DNA of 64,000 bases from an uncultured bacterium. GTDB lineage: Bacteria > Bacteroidota > Bacteroidia > Chitinophagales > Chitinophagaceae. Both the position numbers and the translations under genes were made by a program. The notes below the pieces were generated by a model. It did not search any database and was not told the DNA's origin. It saw only the letters and a program-made list of their open reading frames with translations. The first letter of the stretch is position 1. Each line of letters opens with the position of its first letter. Location of the stretch: NCBI GenBank assembly GCA_903920455.1, contig CAIXLY010000062.1, positions 1 through 64,000 on the forward strand, written 5' to 3'. Shown here one piece after another: positions 50,985 through 61,957 of this stretch.

Positions 50985-52412
50985 TCATTTTCCCAATTGG
51001 GACTTCGAAAATTGCAACAGCTTAGTTTCTTCTAGTCTGTCAGTCATGATCTGAATGCCAAATGGCATGCCGTTGCTGTGTTTGAATAGCGGTATGGAGA
51101 TACCTGCAATGCCTGCTAAGTTTGCATACACCGTGTATAAGTCTCCTAAAAACATTTCCACTGAGTCATTGCTCTTTTCTCCAAATTTAAATGCAGGAGA
51201 GGGCACTGTTGGCATCAGGATCAGGTCGTATGACTTGAATACCTCATTTGTTTTTTCTACAATTAATCTTCTTACTTGCTGTGCTTTCGCGTAATAGGCG
51301 TCATAGTAGCCGGTGCTTAGTACGAAGGTCCCAAGCATGATTCTTTTCTTTACTTCTTTTCCAAAACCTTCAGACCTGGTTTTTTTATAAAGGTCATTTA
51401 GATTTTCAGCGGACTTCTTGGTTCTATGTCCAAATTTAACGCCATCATACCTGGAGAGATTTGATGAGGCCTCTGCCGTTGTTAGCACATAATAAGCAGG
51501 AACCACATGGTCGATATAACCAAAGTCAACCGGCTCGATAGTATGTCCGTCTAACTTTATTTGTTCCATAAGGTTGCCTATTGCAGTCCTGATTTCAGGA
51601 TCAAGGGAGGGGTGATCTAGGGCTTGTGGAAAATAGGCGATTTTAAATTTCTTGTTGGTGTCAAGTACTGATTCATATGCCGGCACTGGAGAGGCTGTGC
51701 ATGTGCTGTCGTATTCATCAGCTCCAGCGATAACCGACAAAACAAGCGAAAGGTCTATGATGTTTTTTGAAAAAATTCCAATTTGGTCGAATGAGGAGGC
51801 ATAAGCGATTAGTCCATATCTGGAAATTCTTCCATAGCCTGGTTTCATGCCAACGATACCGCAGAAGTCTGCAGGCTGCCTTACAGAGCCACCTGTGTCT
51901 GATCCAAGGCTTACCATGCACATGTCAGCTTGAACGGCCACAGCTGACCCGCCAGAAGACCCACCGGGAACCCTGCTCTCATCAGCGGCATTCAACACTT
52001 TCCCGTAGTATGAGTTTTCATTTGACGACCCCATTGCAAACTCATCACAGTTGAGATTCCCAATGATGATGGCGTCTTGATCTAGAAGTCGTTGAATTGC
52101 CGTAGCGTTGTAAATGGCGGTATACCCACTCAGGATTGCAGAGGATGCTGTTACAGTATGGTTGTCATAACAGAGAACATCTTTGATGCCAACGACTACA
52201 CCATATAACTTTCCCCAAGAGGAGGGTGTGTTTATTTTTGCATCAAGTGCTCTTGCACGGGCCATTGCCTCTTCCTCAAATATGTCAATGAACGCATTGA
52301 GGTGTTGCTTCTCTCTAATCTTATTAAGGTAAGAGGAAACTACGTCTACGCAGTTGCATGCGCCTTCCGTCAGAGATTGGTGAAGCTCAGGTATAGATGT
52401 ATGTGTATACAA
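50985..52412 (-). CDS. gatA: Aspartyl/glutamyl-tRNA(Asn/Gln) amidotransferase subunit A
   Basis: 475 residues of the amidase signature family. The catalytic Ser-cisSer-Lys triad is visible: Lys in VVGIKDVLCYDN, and serines in GGSSGGSAVAVQ and LGSDTGGSVRQPADFCG. GatA releases ammonia from glutamine for the GatCAB complex, converting Glu-tRNA(Gln) or Asp-tRNA(Asn). No ATG precedes the conserved N-terminus, so the start is TTG at 52412. gatB and gatC are not in the window. Confidence 0.95.
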   Translation of the reverse strand: MYTHTSIPELHQSLTEGACNCVDVVSSYLNKIREKQHLNAFIDIFEEEAMARARALDAKINTPSSWGKLYGVVVGIKDVLCYDNHTVTASSAILSGYTAIYNATAIQRLLDQDAIIIGNLNCDEFAMGSSNENSYYGKVLNAADESRVPGGSSGGSAVAVQADMCMVSLGSDTGGSVRQPADFCGIVGMKPGYGRISRYGLIAYASSFDQIGIFSKNIIDLSLVLSVIAGADEYDSTCTASPVPAYESVLDTNKKFKIAYFPQALDHPSLDPEIRTAIGNLMEQIKLDGHTIEPVDFGYIDHVVPAYYVLTTAEASSNLSRYDGVKFGHRTKKSAENLNDLYKKTRSEGFGKEVKKRIMLGTFVLSTGYYDAYYAKAQQVRRLIVEKTNEVFKSYDLILMPTVPSPAFKFGEKSNDSVEMFLGDLYTVYANLAGIAGISIPLFKHSNGMPFGIQIMTDRLEETKLLQFSKSQLGK

Positions 52413-52472
52413 AAATCAAATCTATCCGTTTAAAAAAACGGGTGAGGAATAAGGTGAAAGTGTGGAAATCGA

Positions 52473-52685
52473 TTACTGGGCTGGCTTGTCTTTTTCCTGA
52501 ATGCCTTCTTCGATTTCTTTTTTCACGTTTGATTTGGCATCGTTGAATTCACGAATACCCTTTCCGATACCACGCATAAACTCAGGAATTTTTCTTCCTC
52601 CAAACAGGATAAGTACTGCAAGTATGATGAAGATCCACTCAGAGCCACCTGGCATAGCGATCAAAAACGTGTTATTTGATAACAT
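52473..52685 (-). CDS. tatA: Twin-arginine translocase subunit TatA/E
   Basis: 70 residues: one N-terminal membrane helix (EWIFIILAVLILFGG), the hinge RKIPEFMRGIGKGIREF and a charged amphipathic helix and tail. The short N-terminal MLSNNTFLIAMPGG is acceptable from ATG 52685. TatA forms the pore that exports folded proteins with a twin-arginine signal; the isomerase-like protein at 15.2-16.2 kb carries such a signal. It lies 60 bp upstream of gatA and downstream of rplS's terminator. Confidence 0.94.
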   Translation of the reverse strand: MLSNNTFLIAMPGGSEWIFIILAVLILFGGRKIPEFMRGIGKGIREFNDAKSNVKKEIEEGIQEKDKPAQ

Positions 52686-52750
52686 GATAAAATATTTTAG
52701 TAGAAGACAAATTTAATGATTTTTTGCCCGCAAAGGGTGAAGAAGGGCAT

Positions 52751-52776
52751 AAAAAAATCCCGTCAAAGACGGGATT
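52751..52776 (-). terminator. Rho-independent terminator after rplS
   Basis: On the - strand, stem AATCCCGTC / GACGGGATT with a 3-base loop ends in seven T (complement of 52751-52757). It lies 22 bp past the rplS stop. Confidence 0.87.
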
Positions 52777-52797
52777 AACAAATATTTTCCAGTTGGC

Positions 52798-53154
52798 TTA
52801 TCTAACTCTTTTTTCTTTAATCCTGGCTCTTTTACCACTTCTTGTTCTGAGGAAGTAAAGTTTAGCCCTGCGTACTTTACCAGTTTTGTTAAGTACTACA
52901 GATTCAATGTTAGGAGAAGCAACTGGGAAAGTCCTTTCAACGCCAATTGCGTCAGAAATCTTTCTTACTGTGAAGGTGGCAGTGCTTCCAACTCCTTGAC
53001 GCTTGATTACGTCTCCTTTGAAGCTCTGGATCCTTTCTTTGTTTCCCTCAATAATCTTATAGTTAACGGTGATGTTGTCACCCGCTTTGAATTTAGGAAA
53101 GTTGTTGACCGGGGTCATCTGTTCGTGGACAAATGCAATTGCTGCTTGATTCAT
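52798..53154 (-). CDS. rplS: 50S ribosomal protein L19
   Basis: 118 residues from the ATG at 53154 ([13 protein letters not shown]); an earlier ATG (53175) would add seven residues not expected in L19. Hallmarks are [41 protein letters not shown] and the basic C-terminus. L19 is a structural protein at the 30S-50S interface. It has its own promoter and terminator, so it is a single-gene unit. Confidence 0.96.
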
Positions 53155-53172
53155 AACCTGAAATTTGGACGG

Positions 53173-53203
53173 CAAAGGTAAGGGGGATTGCCGATGTTAC
53201 AAA
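53173..53203 (-). promoter_or_regulatory. Bacteroidota-type promoter of rplS
   Basis: On the - strand TTTG (complement of 53200-53203) is followed after exactly 19 bp by TACCTTTG (complement of 53173-53180), a full match to the phylum consensus TTTG-N19-TAnnTTTG. It ends 18 bp before the ATG, implying a very short 5' leader. Confidence 0.7.
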
Positions 53204-53287
53204 ATTGTTTTCTTATTAGTTCTGATAGAGGCCTGTTGAGGGTGAAGGTAAAAAGATGAACTGAGTAGATTGTACCCAGTACCTTGT

Positions 53288-54856
53288 TTATCTAGCCACA
53301 TTCACAGCCCGCTTCTCCCGGATTACAGTTACCCTGATTTGGCCAGGATAAGTCATCTCCGTCTGGATCTTCTGGGCCATTTCAAAGCTAAGCACTTCGC
53401 TTTCTCCGTCGGTTACCTTATCTGCTTCAACGATTACCCTCAATTCTCTTCCGGCTTGGATTGCGTATGCTTTTTCCACGCCATTGTAGGTAAGGGCCAG
53501 GTTTTCAAGGTCTTTAATCCGCTGGATGTATTGCTGCATGATTTCTCTTCTCGCACCCGGTCTTGCCCCGCTAATAGAGTCACATGCCTGGATGATTGGA
53601 GAGATCACAAACTGCATTTCGGTTTCGTCGTGGTGGGCTGCAATAGCGTTAACCACTGCAGGATTTTCTCCGTATTTCTCAGCAAGCTTTCCACCAAGAA
53701 GGGCATGGCTTAATTCAGTTTCCTCGTCGGGTACTTTTCCGATATCGTGCAATAGACCAGCTCTTTTTGCCAACTTAACGTTCATGCCCAATTCTGCAGC
53801 CATAAGACCACAAAGGTTAGCAACCTCTCGGCTGTGCATGAGCAAGTTTTGGCCGTATGAAGAACGGAACCTCATTTTTCCTACCACACGTACAAGTTCT
53901 TTATGAAGACCATGGATACCTAGCTCTATAATTGTTCGCTCGCCGATTTCCATTACCTGCTCTTCCAGCTGTTTGCGTGTTTTCTCAACTACCTCTTCAA
54001 TCCTTGCTGGGTGAATTCTTCCATCGCTAACGAGTCGTTGCAACGCAAGTCTTGCGATCTCTCTGCGCAACGGATCGAAAGAAGAAAGAACGATTGCTTC
54101 TGGAGTATCATCCACGACCAAGTCAACGCCTGTAGAGGCTTCTATAGCGCGGATGTTTCTTCCCTCACGGCCAATGATTTGTCCTTTTATTTCATCACTT
54201 TCAAGTTGGAAAACAGTTACGGTGTTCTCAATTGTCTGCTCTGCTGCAGTACGCTGAATACATTGTATGATGATTTTTCTGGCCTCTTTGTTGGCTTTCT
54301 GACGGGCGTCTTCGATGATTTCTTGTTGTAATGAAAGTGCCCTGGTTTGCGCTTCCTGTTTCAGGCCCTCAATCAATTGCGCTTTTGCGTCTTCTGCACT
54401 TAGGTTGGCAATCTTTTCCAGCTTCCTGATATGCTCTTCCTGGTGTCTTTCCAGCTCAGTCCTTTTTTGATTAACAACCTCAATTTGCCTATTCAAGTGA
54501 TCCTTGATAGCGTCGTTTTCTTTCACCTGCTTTTCCAGGCCTTCAACTTTTTGATTGATTGTCAGTTCCTTTTGCTTGGCCCTATTCTCTGAGTCACCAA
54601 TTTTTCTGTTTTTTTCAAGAATTTCCCTGTCGTGTTCCTCCTTTAGCTGCACAAACTTTTCTTTTGCCTCTAGGAGTCTTTCTTTCTTAAGATTTTCAGA
54701 CTTGGTGTTTGCGTCTGATAGGATTTGTTCTGCTTGTTTCTTTGCTTCTAACACCTTGGAAGCAGTGTCTTTTGCGAAAATGAGTTTACCCAGACCTAGG
54801 CCAACTGCTGCGGCCAAGATCCCAGTTATGATGGGTATAATGAGTTGCGGTTCCAT
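53288..54856 (-). CDS. rny: Ribonuclease Y
   Basis: 522 residues: one N-terminal membrane helix (about 5-25), a long coiled coil (about 35-205), a KH domain (about 212-275; [17 protein letters not shown]) and an HD domain (about 330-430) with [12 protein letters not shown] and AAHHDETE. RNase Y is a membrane-anchored endonuclease that starts mRNA decay. The KH GxxG-type motif and HD residues are intact. zapA is 112 bp upstream on the same strand. Confidence 0.96.
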
Positions 54857-54968
54857 GAATTATATTTTTATTCTGTTTCATAATCAATCCCTTAGAAATT
54901 CTTTCTTATGGGCAATACGGACGAAGTTAGCGAAAAACGACCATAAAACTGCGTTAAAAAAGGGCTGG

Positions 54969-55256
54969 CTAGTCTTCCAAAGCCCTGTCAATCAGTGTTT
55001 CTATCCGGTTGAGCTGCTCGAGGGATTCTGCTATGTTTTCAGGCTGTTTGCCTGTCTGCTGTTCTGTTACAAGCGAGAGTAAAACCATAGCCAAGTAGTC
55101 TTGCATATCTTTTCCGGCATACTGAATTCTGAATTCGGAAAGCTGGTCGTTAAGCTTTTTTGCCATTTTCCGTACCTGCTCCTCATCATTGGAGTTGATC
55201 TTAATGCGGTAGGTTCTGTCGCCCACCACAAGGTTTATTGGGATTAAATTTTGCAT
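54969..55256 (-). CDS. zapA: Cell division protein ZapA
   Basis: 95 residues. The N-terminal globular part (INLVVGDRTYRIKI) and a long C-terminal coiled coil (EEQVRKMAKKLNDQL onward) match ZapA, which crosslinks FtsZ filaments at the division ring. The order pheT - coiled-coil gene - zapA - rny on one strand is consistent with a conserved Bacteroidota neighbourhood. Here a rightward small gene is inserted between zapA and the coiled-coil gene, so zapA needs its own promoter in 55257-55332. Confidence 0.9.
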   Translation of the reverse strand: MQNLIPINLVVGDRTYRIKINSNDEEQVRKMAKKLNDQLSEFRIQYAGKDMQDYLAMVLLSLVTEQQTGKQPENIAESLEQLNRIETLIDRALED

Positions 55257-55332
55257 TTTAATATCTTTTTACTAGATTTATTCACAATTTATGCACCATT
55301 TGCGCTCAAGCTGTTAAAATTAAGCCAAATAC

Positions 55333-55587
55333 ATGTTCGCTAAACCACGCACATCCACCTTCATAGACAACCTCACCATTGAGGTAGAAGAGGCGTTGTT
55401 TGCTCCTGTTCAGGTAGTTCTTAGGAGTGAAGATGGTAAAATTTGCTGTAAAACTGAAAAAAGGATCTTTCCTGGGATGCATTCAATTTATTGGGAAGGA
55501 TTAAATGACTTGCCCTACGGAGTCTACACCTTAGAATGTTCACAAGGTGATGATGTGATTGAAGTAAGAATGGTAAAAAGGGTTTAA
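55333..55587 (+). CDS. Small protein resembling a stand-alone T9SS sorting domain
   Basis: 84 residues, not assignable to a named family. The whole protein resembles a type A T9SS C-terminal sorting domain (beta sandwich): LTIEVEEALFAPVQVVLRSE, then DGKICCKTEKRI, and DLPYGVYTLECSQGDDVIEVRMVKRV, matching the usual final strands (GVYxLxVxxG...xxKVVK). It has no signal peptide and no cargo domain in front. It could therefore be a non-exported fold relative, a fragment, or an unusual small effector. It is the only rightward gene in a leftward block and its end overlaps the coiled-coil gene by 4 bp. Confidence 0.7.
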   Translation: MFAKPRTSTFIDNLTIEVEEALFAPVQVVLRSEDGKICCKTEKRIFPGMHSIYWEGLNDLPYGVYTLECSQGDDVIEVRMVKRV

Positions 55588-55877
55588 CCCTCATTTCCTA
55601 AAAGGGCGATACACCTATCAATTTCTTTAATGTAATCGTTTATCTTTTTTTCGAGCGCTGCACGCGTTTCTTTTGAGTCGACACTTTCTGTAGACTTCAT
55701 CACGTTTAGATTTAACTCCATTTGTTTAGCAGCATCTTTTATTGCATCACACTCAAGTTTTTTTTCTTCAAGTGCTTTGCGAATTTTTTCATTTTCTTTT
55801 TGCAAAGTCTTCAACCTGCTTGAAACAACCCCAAGTTTTTCTGCTATCCGTTTAATTTGATCGTCTGTATCAGCCAT
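55584..55877 (-). CDS. Small coiled-coil protein between pheT and zapA
   Basis: 97 residues, almost entirely heptad-rich coiled coil (KLGVVSSRLKTLQKENEKIRKALEEKK region), with a short C-terminal helix. No signal or membrane segment. It starts 2 bp after pheT's stop, so it is co-transcribed. The position next to zapA suggests a cell-division or ZapB-like partner, but that is inference from linkage and shape only. Confidence 0.75.
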   Translation of the reverse strand: MADTDDQIKRIAEKLGVVSSRLKTLQKENEKIRKALEEKKLECDAIKDAAKQMELNLNVMKSTESVDSKETRAALEKKINDYIKEIDRCIALLGNEG

Positions 55878-55879
55878 CT

Positions 55880-58306
55880 TTATTTTCTAATTTCTGCATT
55901 GAGCTGCATTTCAAAATTATTGGTGATGATGTTCATCATCTTGTCAATCTCTTCATCTTTCATGGTTTTGCTTTCATCAAGAAAAGTAAAATTCATGGCA
56001 AGGGATTGTTTGTCTTTACCAAGTTTTTCATTTTTGAAAACATCAAACAACCTAAAGCTTTTTAATTGAGGTATGGCAAGTTTCTTAAGGGTGTTCTCAA
56101 TATCTGAATAAGGGAGATGATTGTCTGTAACAAAGGAAAGGTCGCGTTGAACCGCAGGAAATTTAGAGATTTCCTTGTAGCGAATAATTTCTTTTTTGCT
56201 TGCTTTGAGCCAAGCTTGCCAGTTGATATCTGCATACCAGACTGGAACCCTGATGTCAAATTTCTTGAGCATACTTTCAGCAGGTCTTCCTATGGTTACC
56301 AGGATGTCCGATTCTGTTGCTCCTGTGAGTATATAATCAAAACGTTCATTTGCTTCTACACTGTAGTTGATTTCATTTATCCCGGATTGTGTTTGTAGTG
56401 AACGCAAAACTCCTTTTAGATAGTATAGGTCAGCCTCCTCCTCTTTTTTATTCCAAGATGTTTCAGTAATCTTTCCAGTTGTGAACAATGCAAGATGATC
56501 CTGTTCGTGGTAGGCTCCTTCTGACTTGGAATATGTTTTTCCAAATTCGAAGAGTTTTAAATTATCGTTTCGGTGATTGAGGTTTCTTGCCATCGTTTGA
56601 AGACCCGTTTCAAGCATGGTGAGGCGAAGTGTATCTAGTTCTGAGCTGAGGTTATTGAGCATCCTCACTGCACTGTTCAATTCATTTGCTGAATAATTCT
56701 CGCTATGCGTAATAGAATTGTTCAGCATTTCGTTGAATCCAATACCTACAAGAACAGTTGAAATTTTTTCACGTAACGGGTAGTCTTGGTTGTTTGTTGT
56801 TACAGAAGGTGAAATGGTAATACTGCCAGGGATTTCGATATTGTCAAACCCATCTATTCTCATGATCTCTTCAATCAAATCAGCAGGGATATGTACATCT
56901 GTCTTGTGGGTTGGGGTCTTGACAGTAATTGATTCATCAGTTTCACTGAGGATATCGAATCCCATTCCCGTTAAGATATTTTTTGTTGTGATCTTCTCAT
57001 ACACCTTACCACTCATTTTAGTTAAGTAAGCGTGATCAAGTTTGATGACAGGTTGTGTTGCAGGTGATGGATAAAGGTCAATAGGATCTGTTTCCACCTT
57101 TCCGTTTGCATATTCAGCAATGAGCAGGGTTGCTTTTTTTAGTGCTTCTAAGGTTTGGCCAATGTCTACACTTTTTTCAAAATGGGTAGCTGCGTCTGTT
57201 CTCAGGTTGTGTCGGAAAGAACTCTTTCTAATGGTTACAGGGTGAAACCATGCGCTTTCTAAAAAGATGTTTCTTGTTGAATCTGTTACGCCACTCTCAA
57301 TCCCTCCAAAAACACCGCCTATACACATAGGCCGACTTGCATCGTCGCAAATCATCAGGTCGCCGGCATCCAGTTTTCTTTCTTTTTCATCCAGACCAAT
57401 AAAAGGGGTTTCTGCATTCAAATTCTTAATCCTCACCCTATTTCCCCCAATCTTTTCAGCATCAAATGCGTGTAAGGGCTGGCCTACATCGTGCAATATA
57501 TAGTTGGTGATGTCTACGATATTATTAATTGGGCGCTGGCCAATTGCTTTCAATCTTTGTTGTATCCATTTTGGAGCAGGCTCCACTTGAATATCCTTGA
57601 TCAGTATACCACTGTACCGCAAGCAATCATCTTGATTTTCTATTTCAACTTCAATGGGACAAGGCTTACCTTTTATAGGGAGGTCATGTTTTAATTTGAT
57701 GAGGGGTTGAATATTGGCTCCTTCATGATGGTTTAGCCAGGAACAAACATCTCTAGCAACCCCAAGGTGACTCATTGCATCACTTCTATTGGGGGTTAAT
57801 CCGATATAAATGATATCATCTTCGTAGGGTTCAAACAATTCAGCAACCTTTATGCCGATTTGCGTTGATGCATCCAATATTCTAATTCCACTATGGTCGG
57901 TGCCTAGTCCAATTTCATCGTCAGCACAGATCATCCCTTGGCTTTCAACTCCCCTGATCTTGGCTAGTTTCATGGTGAGGGAATCTCCAGATGAAGGATA
58001 TATTGTTGTGCCCACTGGAGCAACAATTACTTTTTGCCCGGCAGCTACATTTGGTGCGCCGCATACTATTTGTAATGGATTTGCCGTTCCAATATCGACT
58101 GTTGTTATCGAGAGCCTGTCGGCATTGGGGTGTTTTTCGGCGCTGAGCACCTGGCCGGTTATCAACCCCTGCATATTTCCCTTTACTTCCTGATAGGCTT
58201 CAAGACCTTCTACTTCCAAACCAATGGAATTCAATATCTCCGATAACTTATCGTGACCGATAGGTTTGCTGAAATAATCCATCAGCCATTTGTAAGAAAT
58301 TGTCAT
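55880..58306 (-). CDS. pheT: Phenylalanine--tRNA ligase beta subunit
   Basis: 808 residues, the normal length. Domains in order: a tRNA-binding OB fold (about 40-150; VLSAEKHPNADRLSITTVD), B3/B4 editing domain, B5, a catalytic-like core, and a C-terminal anticodon-binding (FDX-ACB) domain starting near KFPAVQRDLSFV. It pairs with PheS to charge tRNA-Phe. pheS is not in the window. A TATATTTG -7-like box (complement of 58312-58319) lies just upstream of the ATG. Confidence 0.96.
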   Translation of the reverse strand: MTISYKWLMDYFSKPIGHDKLSEILNSIGLEVEGLEAYQEVKGNMQGLITGQVLSAEKHPNADRLSITTVDIGTANPLQIVCGAPNVAAGQKVIVAPVGTTIYPSSGDSLTMKLAKIRGVESQGMICADDEIGLGTDHSGIRILDASTQIGIKVAELFEPYEDDIIYIGLTPNRSDAMSHLGVARDVCSWLNHHEGANIQPLIKLKHDLPIKGKPCPIEVEIENQDDCLRYSGILIKDIQVEPAPKWIQQRLKAIGQRPINNIVDITNYILHDVGQPLHAFDAEKIGGNRVRIKNLNAETPFIGLDEKERKLDAGDLMICDDASRPMCIGGVFGGIESGVTDSTRNIFLESAWFHPVTIRKSSFRHNLRTDAATHFEKSVDIGQTLEALKKATLLIAEYANGKVETDPIDLYPSPATQPVIKLDHAYLTKMSGKVYEKITTKNILTGMGFDILSETDESITVKTPTHKTDVHIPADLIEEIMRIDGFDNIEIPGSITISPSVTTNNQDYPLREKISTVLVGIGFNEMLNNSITHSENYSANELNSAVRMLNNLSSELDTLRLTMLETGLQTMARNLNHRNDNLKLFEFGKTYSKSEGAYHEQDHLALFTTGKITETSWNKKEEEADLYYLKGVLRSLQTQSGINEINYSVEANERFDYILTGATESDILVTIGRPAESMLKKFDIRVPVWYADINWQAWLKASKKEIIRYKEISKFPAVQRDLSFVTDNHLPYSDIENTLKKLAIPQLKSFRLFDVFKNEKLGKDKQSLAMNFTFLDESKTMKDEEIDKMMNIITNNFEMQLNAEIRK

Positions 58307-58322
58307 AAGTGCAAATATAAGG

Positions 58323-58372
58323 AGGTTGAGAGAGGTTTAGAAAGGTTGAGGGAGGTTTAGAGAGGTTTAGTT
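58323..58372. repeat. Five-copy 10-bp tandem repeat upstream of pheT/dnaB
   Basis: Five successive 10-bp units, AGGTTGAGAG, AGGTTTAGAA, AGGTTGAGGG, AGGTTTAGAG and AGGTTTAGTT, alternate TTGAG and TTTAG forms. It lies just upstream of pheT in the 314-bp gap 58307-58620, which otherwise holds no gene that I can see. Confidence 0.85.
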
Positions 58373-58436
58373 GTTTAGGCGTCTAGTCGTTTAGTGCTGA
58401 TCAGCTTAACATCTCAACACCTAAACTTCCCTCAAC
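58345..58436. repeat. Imperfect inverted repeat with nested palindrome
   Basis: GTTGAGGGAGGTTTAG (58345-58360) is inverted at 58421-58436 (15 of 16 bases). A perfect 10-bp palindrome GCTGATCAGC sits between them at 58396-58405. Together they could form a cruciform or long RNA hairpin. Confidence 0.75.
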
Positions 58437-58499
58437 TGTTAACAACACCACACCCGATGTCAACAACCTGCCATTTTCTGTTAATACTCTTGTGGATTG
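58437..58499. other. Phased DnaA-box-like 9-mers upstream of dnaB
   Basis: Four same-direction 9-mers related to TGTGGATAA are present: TGTTAACAA (58437), TGTCAACAA (58458), TGTTAATAC (58479) and TGTGGATTG (58491). The first three are exactly 21 bp apart. An A/T-rich run (58511-58528) follows. This may be a DnaA-bound or origin-like region, but no box is a perfect consensus. Confidence 0.35.
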
Positions 58500-58620
58500 C
58501 GTGTTGTAATTAATGTTTTTTTAAAAACCAAGATGCTTGGCAGCTAGATGGTATATTCGCTTATGGCAGGCAGATGCTATAAAAAAGCAAAAGTTTCAAA
58601 AGTCATAAACAAGTGAAACG

Positions 58621-60180
58621 ATGGATACAACGAATCTAAATAGGGATAGGAGAAACAAGAGAAAGACGGGTACTGAGTTCAATTCATTAGCATATGGAAA
58701 GGTGCCTCCTCAGTCGCGAGAGCTTGAGGAAGCTGTGTTGGGTGCTGTGATGCTGGAGCGTGCTGCTTTTGATATCGTTATCAATATTTTGAAGCCTGAG
58801 TGTTTTTATGTGGATGCACACCAATTAATTTTTAGTGCAATCGTTAGGTTGAATGGTGAAAGCAAACCAATTGACTTGCTTACCGTTGTTGAAGAGCTCA
58901 AGGCAATGGAAATGCTTGATCAGGTAGGTGGACCATATTATATTTCCAAACTTACCAATGCTGTTGTATCTGCCGCAAATATTGAGGCCCATGCCCGTAT
59001 CGTGCAAGAGAAGTTTATTCAGCGAGAGCTTATACGCATCAGCAGTGAAATTATTACGGACGCATACGATGAATCTACAGACGTGTTTGAATTGCTTGAT
59101 AGTGCAGAGCAGAAGTTATTCGAGATCGCAAACAATCAACTAAAAAAAGAATTTGATACACTTGGAAGAAGTGTAATGGATACCCTTAACCGCATTGATG
59201 AAATGCGTGCGAGGAATGAAGACATCACGGGTGTTCCTTCAGGATTTCCTAGTCTGGATAATACCACATATGGCTGGCAGAAGTCGGATCTAATCATCCT
59301 GGCTGCACGTCCATCTGTGGGTAAGACAGCCTTTGCGCTAAACTTGGCCAGGAATGCTGCAATGCATCCAACCAAGCCAACTTCAGTTGCATTCTTTAGT
59401 TTGGAGATGAGTACAGGACAGCTTGTTCAACGTATTTTGTCTGCTGAGAGTGAGATCTATCTTTCAAAAATCTCAAGAGGACGGATGGAAGATTATGAGA
59501 TGCAGCAATTATACAAGAAGGGAATTGAACCACTGACTAAAGCCCAATTGTTTATTGATGATTCTGCTGCGCTAAATATTTTTGAGTTGCGTGCGAAATG
59601 CCGCAGGCTAAAAAGTTTGCATAACGTAGGGCTTATCATAATAGATTATCTCCAGCTCATGAGTGGTTCGAGTGAGAATAGGAATTCAAACAGGGAGCAA
59701 GAGATCAGCACGATTTCCAGAAACCTCAAGCAGTTGGCCAAAGAGCTTCAGGTTCCCATCATTGCCCTCAGCCAGTTGAGTCGTGAAGTTGAAAAAAGAA
59801 AAGAGAGCAACAAGGTTCCTCAGCTTTCAGATCTTCGTGAATCGGGTGCAATCGAGCAAGATGCTGATATGGTGATGTTTCTGTACAGACCAGATTATTA
59901 TGACATCACCACCAATGATATGGGGGAGGATACCAAGGGTGATGTATTTGTAAAGATTGCAAAGCACCGTAATGGTTCATTGGAAAATATCAAATTGAAA
60001 GCGAAGCTGCATATCCAAAAATTTGAGGAACACGAGAGTCTTGATCCATTTGGAAGAGGCATGCCCGAAGGCGGAAACTGGAAACCTGTCTCTGAAGATC
60101 CAGGAGCCAAGCTTTTTATTCAAAAGGGTAGCAGGATGAATGATGCTGGCGATGCCGACATTGAGGATACTCCTTTCTAG
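58621..60180 (+). CDS. dnaB: Replicative DNA helicase DnaB
   Basis: 519 residues. The N-terminal DnaB domain begins at PPQSRELEEAVLGAVM. The RecA-like C-terminal domain carries Walker A AARPSVGKTAFALN, VAFFSLEMS, LIIIDYLQLM (Walker B) and DLRESGAIEQDADMV. DnaB is the hexameric helicase of the fork. There is no intein. The 314-bp upstream region holds repeats and DnaA-box-like sequences described separately. Confidence 0.97.
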   Translation: MDTTNLNRDRRNKRKTGTEFNSLAYGKVPPQSRELEEAVLGAVMLERAAFDIVINILKPECFYVDAHQLIFSAIVRLNGESKPIDLLTVVEELKAMEMLDQVGGPYYISKLTNAVVSAANIEAHARIVQEKFIQRELIRISSEIITDAYDESTDVFELLDSAEQKLFEIANNQLKKEFDTLGRSVMDTLNRIDEMRARNEDITGVPSGFPSLDNTTYGWQKSDLIILAARPSVGKTAFALNLARNAAMHPTKPTSVAFFSLEMSTGQLVQRILSAESEIYLSKISRGRMEDYEMQQLYKKGIEPLTKAQLFIDDSAALNIFELRAKCRRLKSLHNVGLIIIDYLQLMSGSSENRNSNREQEISTISRNLKQLAKELQVPIIALSQLSREVEKRKESNKVPQLSDLRESGAIEQDADMVMFLYRPDYYDITTNDMGEDTKGDVFVKIAKHRNGSLENIKLKAKLHIQKFEEHESLDPFGRGMPEGGNWKPVSEDPGAKLFIQKGSRMNDAGDADIEDTPF

Positions 60181-60901: not shown

Positions 60902-61957
60902 TTATTTTGCTAAAGCACGACAGATTCTTTTTGCTATTGTCGGTCCTTCATAGATGAAGCCAGTCCACACCTGAACAAGCGATGCACCTGCATCCATTTT
61001 TTCTTTTGCATCTTCTCCGGTAAAGATCCCCCCACTTGCGATTACAGGTATCTTTCCTTGGGTTAAGGAAATGATTGTTTTCAGTATTTGATCTGATGTT
61101 TCTTTAAGCGGACGGCCACTTAGTCCACCCATTCCAATTTTCTCAGACAATTCTTGTGAAGAAACGGAGAGTTGTTCTCTTGATATGGTGGTGTTGCTTG
61201 AAACAATGCCATCCAGTTTAACGATCGTAGCAATTTCTGCGATGTCGATTAATTGTTCATTGGTGAGGTCTGGTGCAATCTTAAGTAAGATTGGTTTTTG
61301 CGTGGCTCTTTTTGCATTATGTTCCCGGAGTGTTCCGAGAATTTTTAGCAACGAATCTTTGTCTTGCAATGCCCTTAATCCTGGTGTGTTTGGTGAGCTA
61401 ACATTGACTACAAAATAGTCAACCACATCAAAAAGTTCATTGAAGCAGAGCAGGTAGTCTTTCCATGCATCTTCATTTGGGGTGACTTTATTCTTCCCAA
61501 TATTTCCACCGATAATCATGCGCTTGCCGGACGGGGTTCCTTCATTTTTCACTTTCCATGTTGTAAGCCTTTCCTTGATTGCAGCTACACCATCATTATT
61601 AAAACCCATTCTGTTGATGAGTGCCTTGTCTGCCGGAAGTCTAAAAAGCCTAGGTTTTTCATTTCCTTCTTGGGCTAGTGGAGTAACTGTACCTATTTCA
61701 ACGAAACCGAAACCCAATGTTTCCAATTCTCTTAAGTAAGCTGCATTCTTGTCAAATCCTGCACCCAAGCCAACTGGATTTTTAAATTTCAATCCGAATA
61801 GTGCTGTTTCAAGTGAAGGAAAATCTTGACTAAACCATGCGCTAATCAGTTTTCGGATTGGACTGATGGAGCAGGATGTTTTCAGCAGGTTCATTGAAAC
61901 GTAGTGCGCTTTCTCAGCATCAAGTAGGAAAAGGGTATTTCGCAGCAGGGCGTACAT
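60902..61957 (-). CDS. pyrD: Dihydroorotate dehydrogenase (quinone), class 2
   Basis: 351 residues. An N-terminal helical extension (MYALLRNTLFLLDAEKAHY) typical of class 2 attaches the enzyme to the membrane. FMN and substrate sites lie in PVGLGAGFDKNAAY, NRMGFNNDG and VNVSSPNTPGLR (catalytic Ser) and a C-terminal GGIFTGEDAKEKMDAGASLVQ motif. It oxidises dihydroorotate to orotate in pyrimidine synthesis, passing electrons to quinone. It converges on rsmE with a 3-bp gap. Confidence 0.96.
   Translation of the reverse strand: MYALLRNTLFLLDAEKAHYVSMNLLKTSCSISPIRKLISAWFSQDFPSLETALFGLKFKNPVGLGAGFDKNAAYLRELETLGFGFVEIGTVTPLAQEGNEKPRLFRLPADKALINRMGFNNDGVAAIKERLTTWKVKNEGTPSGKRMIIGGNIGKNKVTPNEDAWKDYLLCFNELFDVVDYFVVNVSSPNTPGLRALQDKDSLLKILGTLREHNAKRATQKPILLKIAPDLTNEQLIDIAEIATIVKLDGIVSSNTTISREQLSVSSQELSEKIGMGGLSGRPLKETSDQILKTIISLTQGKIPVIASGGIFTGEDAKEKMDAGASLVQVWTGFIYEGPTIAKRICRALAK

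Follow-up and report, generated by a model that had tools for sequence, protein, structure and literature searches.

A helically phased array of DnaA boxes upstream of dnaB in Chitinophagaceae and its likely role in regulation of the replicative helicase gene by DnaA

In the genome of an uncultured member of the Chitinophagaceae, the gene for the replicative DNA helicase, dnaB, is directly preceded by co-oriented and helically phased DnaA boxes, and arrays of this kind are common to its relatives. It is quite likely that this array constitutes a DnaA-binding ladder located in the dnaB promoter and that DnaA regulates the transcription of dnaB from it; the array is probably a switch tying the production of the helicase to DnaA, rather than a replication origin. 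A preliminary description of this DNA had proposed both the phased DnaA boxes at dnaB and an origin-like function for them; the former part of that interpretation stands, whereas the latter, on balance, does not.

The array upstream of dnaB and its surroundings

The window, viz. the whole stretch of 64,000 nucleotides that was analysed, belongs to an assembly of 2.31 Mb in 106 contigs. Within it, dnaB (58621 to 60180, plus strand; match over the TIGR00665 cut-off) and its divergent neighbour pheT (55880 to 58306, minus strand; over the TIGR00472 cut-off) are separated by a gap of 314 bp, as pheT starts at 58306 on the minus strand and dnaB at 58621 on the plus strand. The gene directions that had been described on the two sides of the array are confirmed: the named genes from 50985 to 58306 are all leftward, and beyond the array genes are mostly rightward, with dnaB and the next open reading frame pointing right, the one at 60902 to 61957 pointing left and the next two again pointing right.

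The four co-oriented 9-mers reported earlier at 58437, 58458, 58479 and 58491 are present at these coordinates on the plus strand, viz. site 1 (TGTTAACAA, 58437 to 58445; TGTGAATAA in some close relatives), site 2 (TGTCAACAA, 58458 to 58466), site 3 (TGTTAATAC, 58479 to 58487; TGTGGACAG in some relatives) and site 4 (TGTGGATTG, 58491 to 58499; TGTGGATAG in some relatives). The measured spacing is 21, 21 and then 12 bp, so that the first three are, as was stated, exactly 21 bp apart. It is also correct that no single box is a perfect DnaA consensus, since sites 1 to 3 each show three mismatches to TGTGGATAA and site 4 shows two, and each is weak when taken alone. Sites 1 and 2 read TGTYAACAA, and all four sites are two mismatches away from the generic box TGTGNATAA, none of them being within one mismatch. 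Sites 3 and 4 (58479 and 58491), which are co-oriented and 12 bp apart from start to start, form a double DnaA box, and site 4 has the top matrix score among the sites of the array. A degenerate fifth position (TGTTGTAAT, 58502 to 58510, plus strand) follows 11 bp after site 4, and in an alignment of 14 sequences from the genus its TGTT alone is conserved. An A/T-rich element (TTAATGTTTTTTTAAAA, 58510 to 58526, plus strand), conserved in the genus alignment and a possible UP-like element, is located between the array and the promoter, and the earlier statement that an A/T-rich tract and then dnaB follow the boxes holds in this form. The predicted dnaB promoter is marked by a -7-like element, TATATTCG (58552 to 58559, plus strand; Bacteroidota consensus TAnnTTTG), which is invariant in the 14 aligned sequences.

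The part of the gap between pheT and the array (58322 to 58436) holds a purine-rich 10-bp tandem repeat, GAGAGGTTTA, and next to it a sequence that is nearly its reverse complement, and the two could fold into an imperfect hairpin; this arrangement is also seen in L002 to L008. The repeat region is dispersed in the genome of the window, where a 401-bp query gives 19 matches with its own place included, and a 16-mer of the repeat at up to two mismatches gives 41 matches versus 2 for a reversed control. Twelve of 31 genus genomes have no match to this 16-mer, and other simple-sequence repeats occupy the same position between pheT and the array in some relatives.

Shared motif and box spacing upstream of dnaB

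For comparison with relatives, 40 genomes (own included) were queried and a dnaB match was found in 37, from which 30 loci were kept, 24 of these being from the genus (own included). A further set of 80 named loci (L040 to L119) consists of the best 80 of 591 dnaB matches, of which, by their titles, Chitinophagales/Chitinophagaceae metagenome-assembled genomes are the closest, the others ranging from Chitinophagaceae genera to entries named only as "Bacteroidetes bacterium", and including occasional other names, Williamsia and Sphingobacterium among them.

Among the 80 named loci, the 8-mer with the strongest enrichment in the 450 bp before dnaB is GTGGATAA, which is present in 38 loci versus 1.8 expected. 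A motif search, carried out with a second-order background and a fixed motif fraction (a free fraction drifted into the A/T-rich background), converged from each of the unrelated seeds tried on the DnaA box TTATCCACA, and 75-79% of the motif weight was on the strand of dnaB. Boxes within one mismatch of TGTGGATAA occur at a mean of 1.66 per 500 bp upstream versus 0.26 over whole loci, and 9 of the 80 loci have no such box upstream of dnaB. The matrix gave 513 plus-strand matches in the 80 loci, the same loci on which it was trained, versus 144 +/- 11 in single-base shuffles. The spacings of box pairs in these loci follow a period of about 10.5 bp, with peaks at 11-12 (42 pairs at 11 bp and 40 at 12 bp when pooled), 21-22 (94 at 21), 32-33, 41-44, 53-55 and 62-65 bp.

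Two other 8-mers, GGTAACAT (12 of 80 loci) and GTAACAAT (13 of 80), are also enriched upstream of dnaB in L040 to L119, and in 17 of the 18 occurrences where the promoter element was measurable they are located 22-46 bp downstream of it. Another sequence, TACCTTAG, is found in 18 of the 80 loci, 17 of which lack the promoter element. These observations suggest that GGTAACAT, GTAACAAT and TACCTTAG are further conserved elements upstream of dnaB.

Helical phase of the boxes relative to the promoter

The sigma-A promoters of Bacteroidota carry the element TAnnTTTG, which is placed at -12 to -5 in Flavobacterium psychrophilum (PMC9723704, PMC7366714). The -7-like element that was used here, TANNTTCG, is one base off this published form, and it replaced an earlier promoter pattern, T[AT]NATTYGY, which had matched 47 of 80 loci. 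Upstream of dnaB TANNTTCG was found in 57 of 94 loci, the other 37 being without it within 500 bp, and in these 57 loci the boxes mostly start 157, 116, 95, 74, 62 and 51 bp before it. In the window, where TATATTCG is at 58552, the corresponding distances are 115, 94, 73, 61 and 50 bp, i.e. the ladder of the relatives less one base. In some clades the boxes are displaced by one turn (104, 83 and 62 bp) with the phase being kept. Where TANNTTCG is found, the predicted promoter stands in a fixed relation to the boxes.

The phase was tested with the generic box TGTGNATAA, allowing one mismatch. An element and a box in range were present in 72 of 113 loci (41 lacked one or the other), and 55 loci remained after dereplication at 65% identity. 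With one phase taken per locus, the phase of the boxes relative to the promoter element gave R=0.80 at 10.5 bp versus R=0.06 relative to the start codon in these 55 loci, the sequences being related and the Rayleigh values in consequence overstating their independence. With two mismatches to TGTGNATAA in each of its boxes, the window did not qualify for the 72 loci of this test.

Conservation of the array in related genomes

pheT is the divergent neighbour upstream of dnaB in 23 of the 24 genus loci, and the remaining locus (L029) is incomplete. Several close relatives carry better boxes in the same places, for example TGTGAATAA, TGTCAATAA, TGTGGACTG and TGTGGATAG at spacings of 21, 21 and 12 bp, followed after 11 bp by TGTT, and the alignment of the gap shows that the 21-bp spacing, on whose conservation the preliminary description had made its case depend, is indeed conserved in close relatives. 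Across the 14 aligned genus sequences TATATTCG is conserved, as is the TGT within the boxes, and the spacers between the boxes vary. One example of a change in the ladder is seen in L019, where a 12-bp gap, i.e. about one helical turn, takes the place of one box.

When chains of boxes were scored, the top site was upstream of dnaB and on its strand in all 24 genus loci (L010 to L033, the window's own included and four taken as duplicates of training loci), and likewise upstream of dnaB and on its strand in all 16 further loci of the family (L231 to L246), in two of them through a single box. In loci at the level of the order, a phased chain was the top site and upstream of dnaB in 4 of 6. The dnaB array also ranked first in the examined stretches of four genomes (G021, G015, G041 and G040), and two dnaB paralogues showed no comparable chain, their best scores being 3.9 and 3.5. 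A scan for a ladder with fixed slots gave dnaB as its top site in the window and in G021, did not recover it in G015, G040 and G041, and gave nothing comparable in the six order-level loci; a strict box-pair pattern matched the dnaB array in none of 12 single-contig genomes. The stretches of G063 covered by the chain and fixed-slot scans exclude its dnaB array, which is known from locus L235 only. A single strong box is present at dnaB in two complete genomes of one genus (G063 and G132).

Specificity of the array within the window

At three or fewer mismatches, TGTGGATAA has 928 matches on the plus strand of the 64-kb window, and there are 45 plus-strand start points with four such matches within 63 bp. 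Due to these numbers of single matches and clusters, the array is at chance level when it is counted as single boxes. By a plain cluster score, which disregards spacing, the dnaB array has rank 3 in the window and rank 5 in G021, and it leads in both G015 and G041; by the chain score, which includes spacing, it comes second in the window, outranked only by the zapA site described below. However, when the spaced set is anchored on the promoter, with slots learned from the relatives and measured from the promoter-like element, the dnaB array is first among the 81 TANNTTYG sites of the window, with a score of 18.3 versus 4.9 for the next. Over all positions of the window on both strands, the score of the array is matched only at 58552 to 58555, i.e. 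by the array itself, and none of 5000 shuffles of its 170 bp reached it. A chance origin of the array was considered and rejected, as its conservation and phase speak against it despite the single-box counts.

Other DnaA-box sites

Just upstream of the cell division gene zapA (54969 to 55256, minus strand; over the PF05164 cut-off), TGTGAATAA and GGTGCATAA form a double DnaA box with a spacing of 11 bp (55278 to 55297, minus strand), which would probably be a second target of DnaA. A strict pattern of this type gave 33 matches in 25 of 41 genus genomes versus 3 for a reversed control. The position of zapA was located in 38 of the 41 genomes, and the double box is found 20-23 bp before it in 11 genomes (G000, G001, G010, G012, G015, G016, G021, G023, G024, G189 and G194). 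No such box was found at zapA in G041, G040 or G063; a single named locus, L089, has it.

A third recurrent double DnaA box, GTGAATTACNTGTGAATAA, occurs in eight genus genomes (G002:C22:77083, G004:C169:11673, G006:C37:2567, G009:C15:11061, G011:C101:6173, G013:C34:13377, G017:C58:9188 and G192:C348:14839). In six of the eight, which are the six where dnaA was found, this box and dnaA are on different contigs. Autoregulation of dnaA was also considered and set aside, as the best chain at the dnaA locus in the window's genome is intragenic and has a weak score (6.0).

Proposed function of the array

The sequences support the identity of the boxes in relatives, their spacing and conservation, their phase with the -7-like element and the presence of a standard DnaA, and from these we infer the binding of DnaA, the dnaB promoter itself and the sign of regulation. 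Conserved boxes are present upstream of or within the promoter, as in a DnaA regulon, and the genome of the window has one DnaA match, over the TIGR00362 cut-off. This protein aligns with solved DnaA chains, including the domain IV entries 1j1v and 3pvp, so that a DnaA with the box-binding domain IV is encoded in this genome, and it keeps the signature GRDHTTV, which we take to be the part that contacts the DnaA box.

It is proposed that DnaA, probably as an oligomer, would occupy several co-oriented boxes along one face of the helix, the predicted transcription start in the window being about 58 to 123 bp downstream of the box centres. Since the core promoter lies downstream of the boxes and shares their helical phase, activation through a contact with RNA polymerase is likelier than blockage, and the regulation of dnaB is probably an activation. 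By regulating dnaB from this ladder, DnaA would couple the supply of helicase to its own level or nucleotide state, DnaA being the initiator by which the helicase is loaded. A bolder extension of this proposal, which may be entertained only tentatively, is that the ladder is the site of an orisome-like DnaA filament and a timed switch, forming part of a DnaA-driven helicase-and-division programme general to Chitinophagaceae. Under this extension, a DnaA oligomer would span some seven to eleven helical turns only at high DnaA-ATP, dnaB (and zapA through its double box) would be activated in step with initiation, and the geometry of the promoter would change mainly by whole helical turns.

The binding of DnaA at dnaB is of an already known kind. 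DnaA is bound upstream of dnaB in DNA of Mycobacterium tuberculosis, it was found at the homologous region in M. smegmatis by ChIP-seq, and the mycobacterial binding is stated to agree with that in Caulobacter crescentus (PMC7738170, with Hottes 2005 as its reference). The cases are alike in that DnaA sites are upstream of the replicative helicase gene and outside oriC; however, they concern other phyla, a phased multi-box ladder is not mentioned in the cited passages, and the evidence presented here comes from sequence. In E. coli, the preferred binding sites of DnaA are pairs of boxes separated by 2-3 bp, and its double boxes are, like that of the array, co-oriented, spaced 11-12 bp from start to start and located in promoters of replication genes; here, in contrast, the double box belongs to a longer ladder, in which steps of 21 and 41 bp also occur, and dnaB is not among the DnaA targets named in the cited passages (PMC11317965).

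Alternative explanations

That the array mainly titrates DnaA, or serves nucleotide exchange in the manner of datA or DARS, with its place at dnaB being incidental to transcription, is considered unlikely. The datA and DARS loci consist of DnaA boxes and IHF sites (DARS2 also has Fis sites) which promote ATP hydrolysis or exchange. Titration is favoured by the presence of multiple boxes at a locus that has no origin mark in the skew, as in the clusters of Bacillus subtilis (Okumura 2012), which are described as sequestering DnaA (PMC11019786). These clusters are likewise outside the origin, but they differ in that their described role is to sequester DnaA and that no promoter ladder is mentioned for them in the cited passages (PMC11019786). 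However, the positions of the boxes follow the helical phase of the promoter and not that of the ATG, which titration would not require, and the array stays with dnaB in a family where dnaB and dnaA are found at widely differing distances from each other.

An identification of the array with the chromosomal replication origin (oriC), in which the A/T tract would serve as unwinding element, is distinctly unlikely. In oriC, several co-oriented DnaA boxes are in helical phase beside an A/T-rich tract, and in E. coli, judged by the orientation of the boxes, the unwinding element is located on the opposite side of R1, which would count against an origin at dnaB. The dnaB array is a cluster of DnaA boxes, and it resembles oriC arrays in that its boxes are phased and co-oriented, with a conserved A/T tract next to them on the 3' side; it differs from them in its phase to the promoter, which speaks against this reading, and in having no chromosome-scale skew change. 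Read in the direction of dnaB, the 5-kb flanks show a skew step at dnaB, from negative to positive, in all five genomes measured (window -0.033/+0.110, G021 -0.044/+0.046, G015 -0.036/+0.041, G041 -0.012/+0.006, G040 -0.013/+0.025), and the 20-kb skew step at dnaB is reached by 1% of positions in G015 and 11% in G021. The dnaB array is in addition the best DnaA-box cluster in the 780 kb of G041 that were scanned, and dnaA is 15-20 kb from dnaB in G021, G015 and G019. However, with 20-kb flanks no change from minus to plus is seen (G021 0.000/+0.044, G015 -0.004/+0.053, G041 +0.024/+0.001, G040 +0.052/+0.039), and at flanks of 100 and 160 kb both sides are skew-positive in G021 and G015. The 5-kb step fits the divergent gene directions, which alone could give it, and it presumably follows these genes.

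On the scale of the chromosome, the skew minimum expected earlier at the array is not seen in any of the three relatives with samples of this scale, where the skew changes about 0.3-0.9 Mb from dnaB. In G040 (20 samples, each of 20 kb, from a 3.09 Mb contig) a noisy sign change is at 1.46-2.1 Mb and dnaB at 1.16 Mb; in G041 (1.85 Mb contig) the sign changes at about 0.87-1.08 Mb and dnaB is at 1.62 Mb; and in G063 (a single contig of 3.34 Mb, 20 samples) the change from minus to plus is at 515-660 kb and that from plus to minus at 2.22-2.40 Mb, with dnaB at 0.24 Mb. As G063 keeps one strong box, G040 and G041, which have strong arrays, weigh more; their skew samples are sparse. With these three relatives and the 20-160 kb flanks of G021 and G015 giving no chromosome-scale change at the site, the suggestion of an origin-like element is, on balance, not sustained, as the change is located away from dnaB.

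Clusters of DnaA boxes are also present elsewhere in single-contig genomes. One of these (G063:C1:640509-640536) is inside the interval of the skew change and away from dnaB, and it is a candidate for the real origin; others away from dnaB are at G060:C1:2375737-2375789, G060:C1:2763651-2763701 and G184:C1:3441967-3442006.

It is highly improbable that the array is bound by another regulator with a DnaA-box-like site, for which it may be said that no DnaA binding data for Bacteroidota were found in the literature searched and that all four window sites, with TGTYAACAA at sites 1 and 2, depart from TGTGNATAA at two positions; however, the motif recovered from the 80 loci is that of the DnaA box, and the step of the double box, 11/12 bp, agrees with the binding of E. 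coli DnaA.

Significance of the array

No report of a promoter-locked DnaA ladder, or of this array in Chitinophagaceae, was found in the titles and abstract openings of the open-licence literature, and no description of how Bacteroidota tie replication initiation to gene expression was found in the literature searched. For the identification of origins, the results indicate that a cluster of DnaA boxes together with a local skew step beside dnaB can mislead when the skew is not checked on the scale of the chromosome. For the biology of these bacteria, the array represents a probable promoter-locked DnaA ladder at the helicase gene that is common to relatives, and as a fragment of about 150 bp it predicts that insertions of a whole helical turn would be tolerated and those of a half turn would not.
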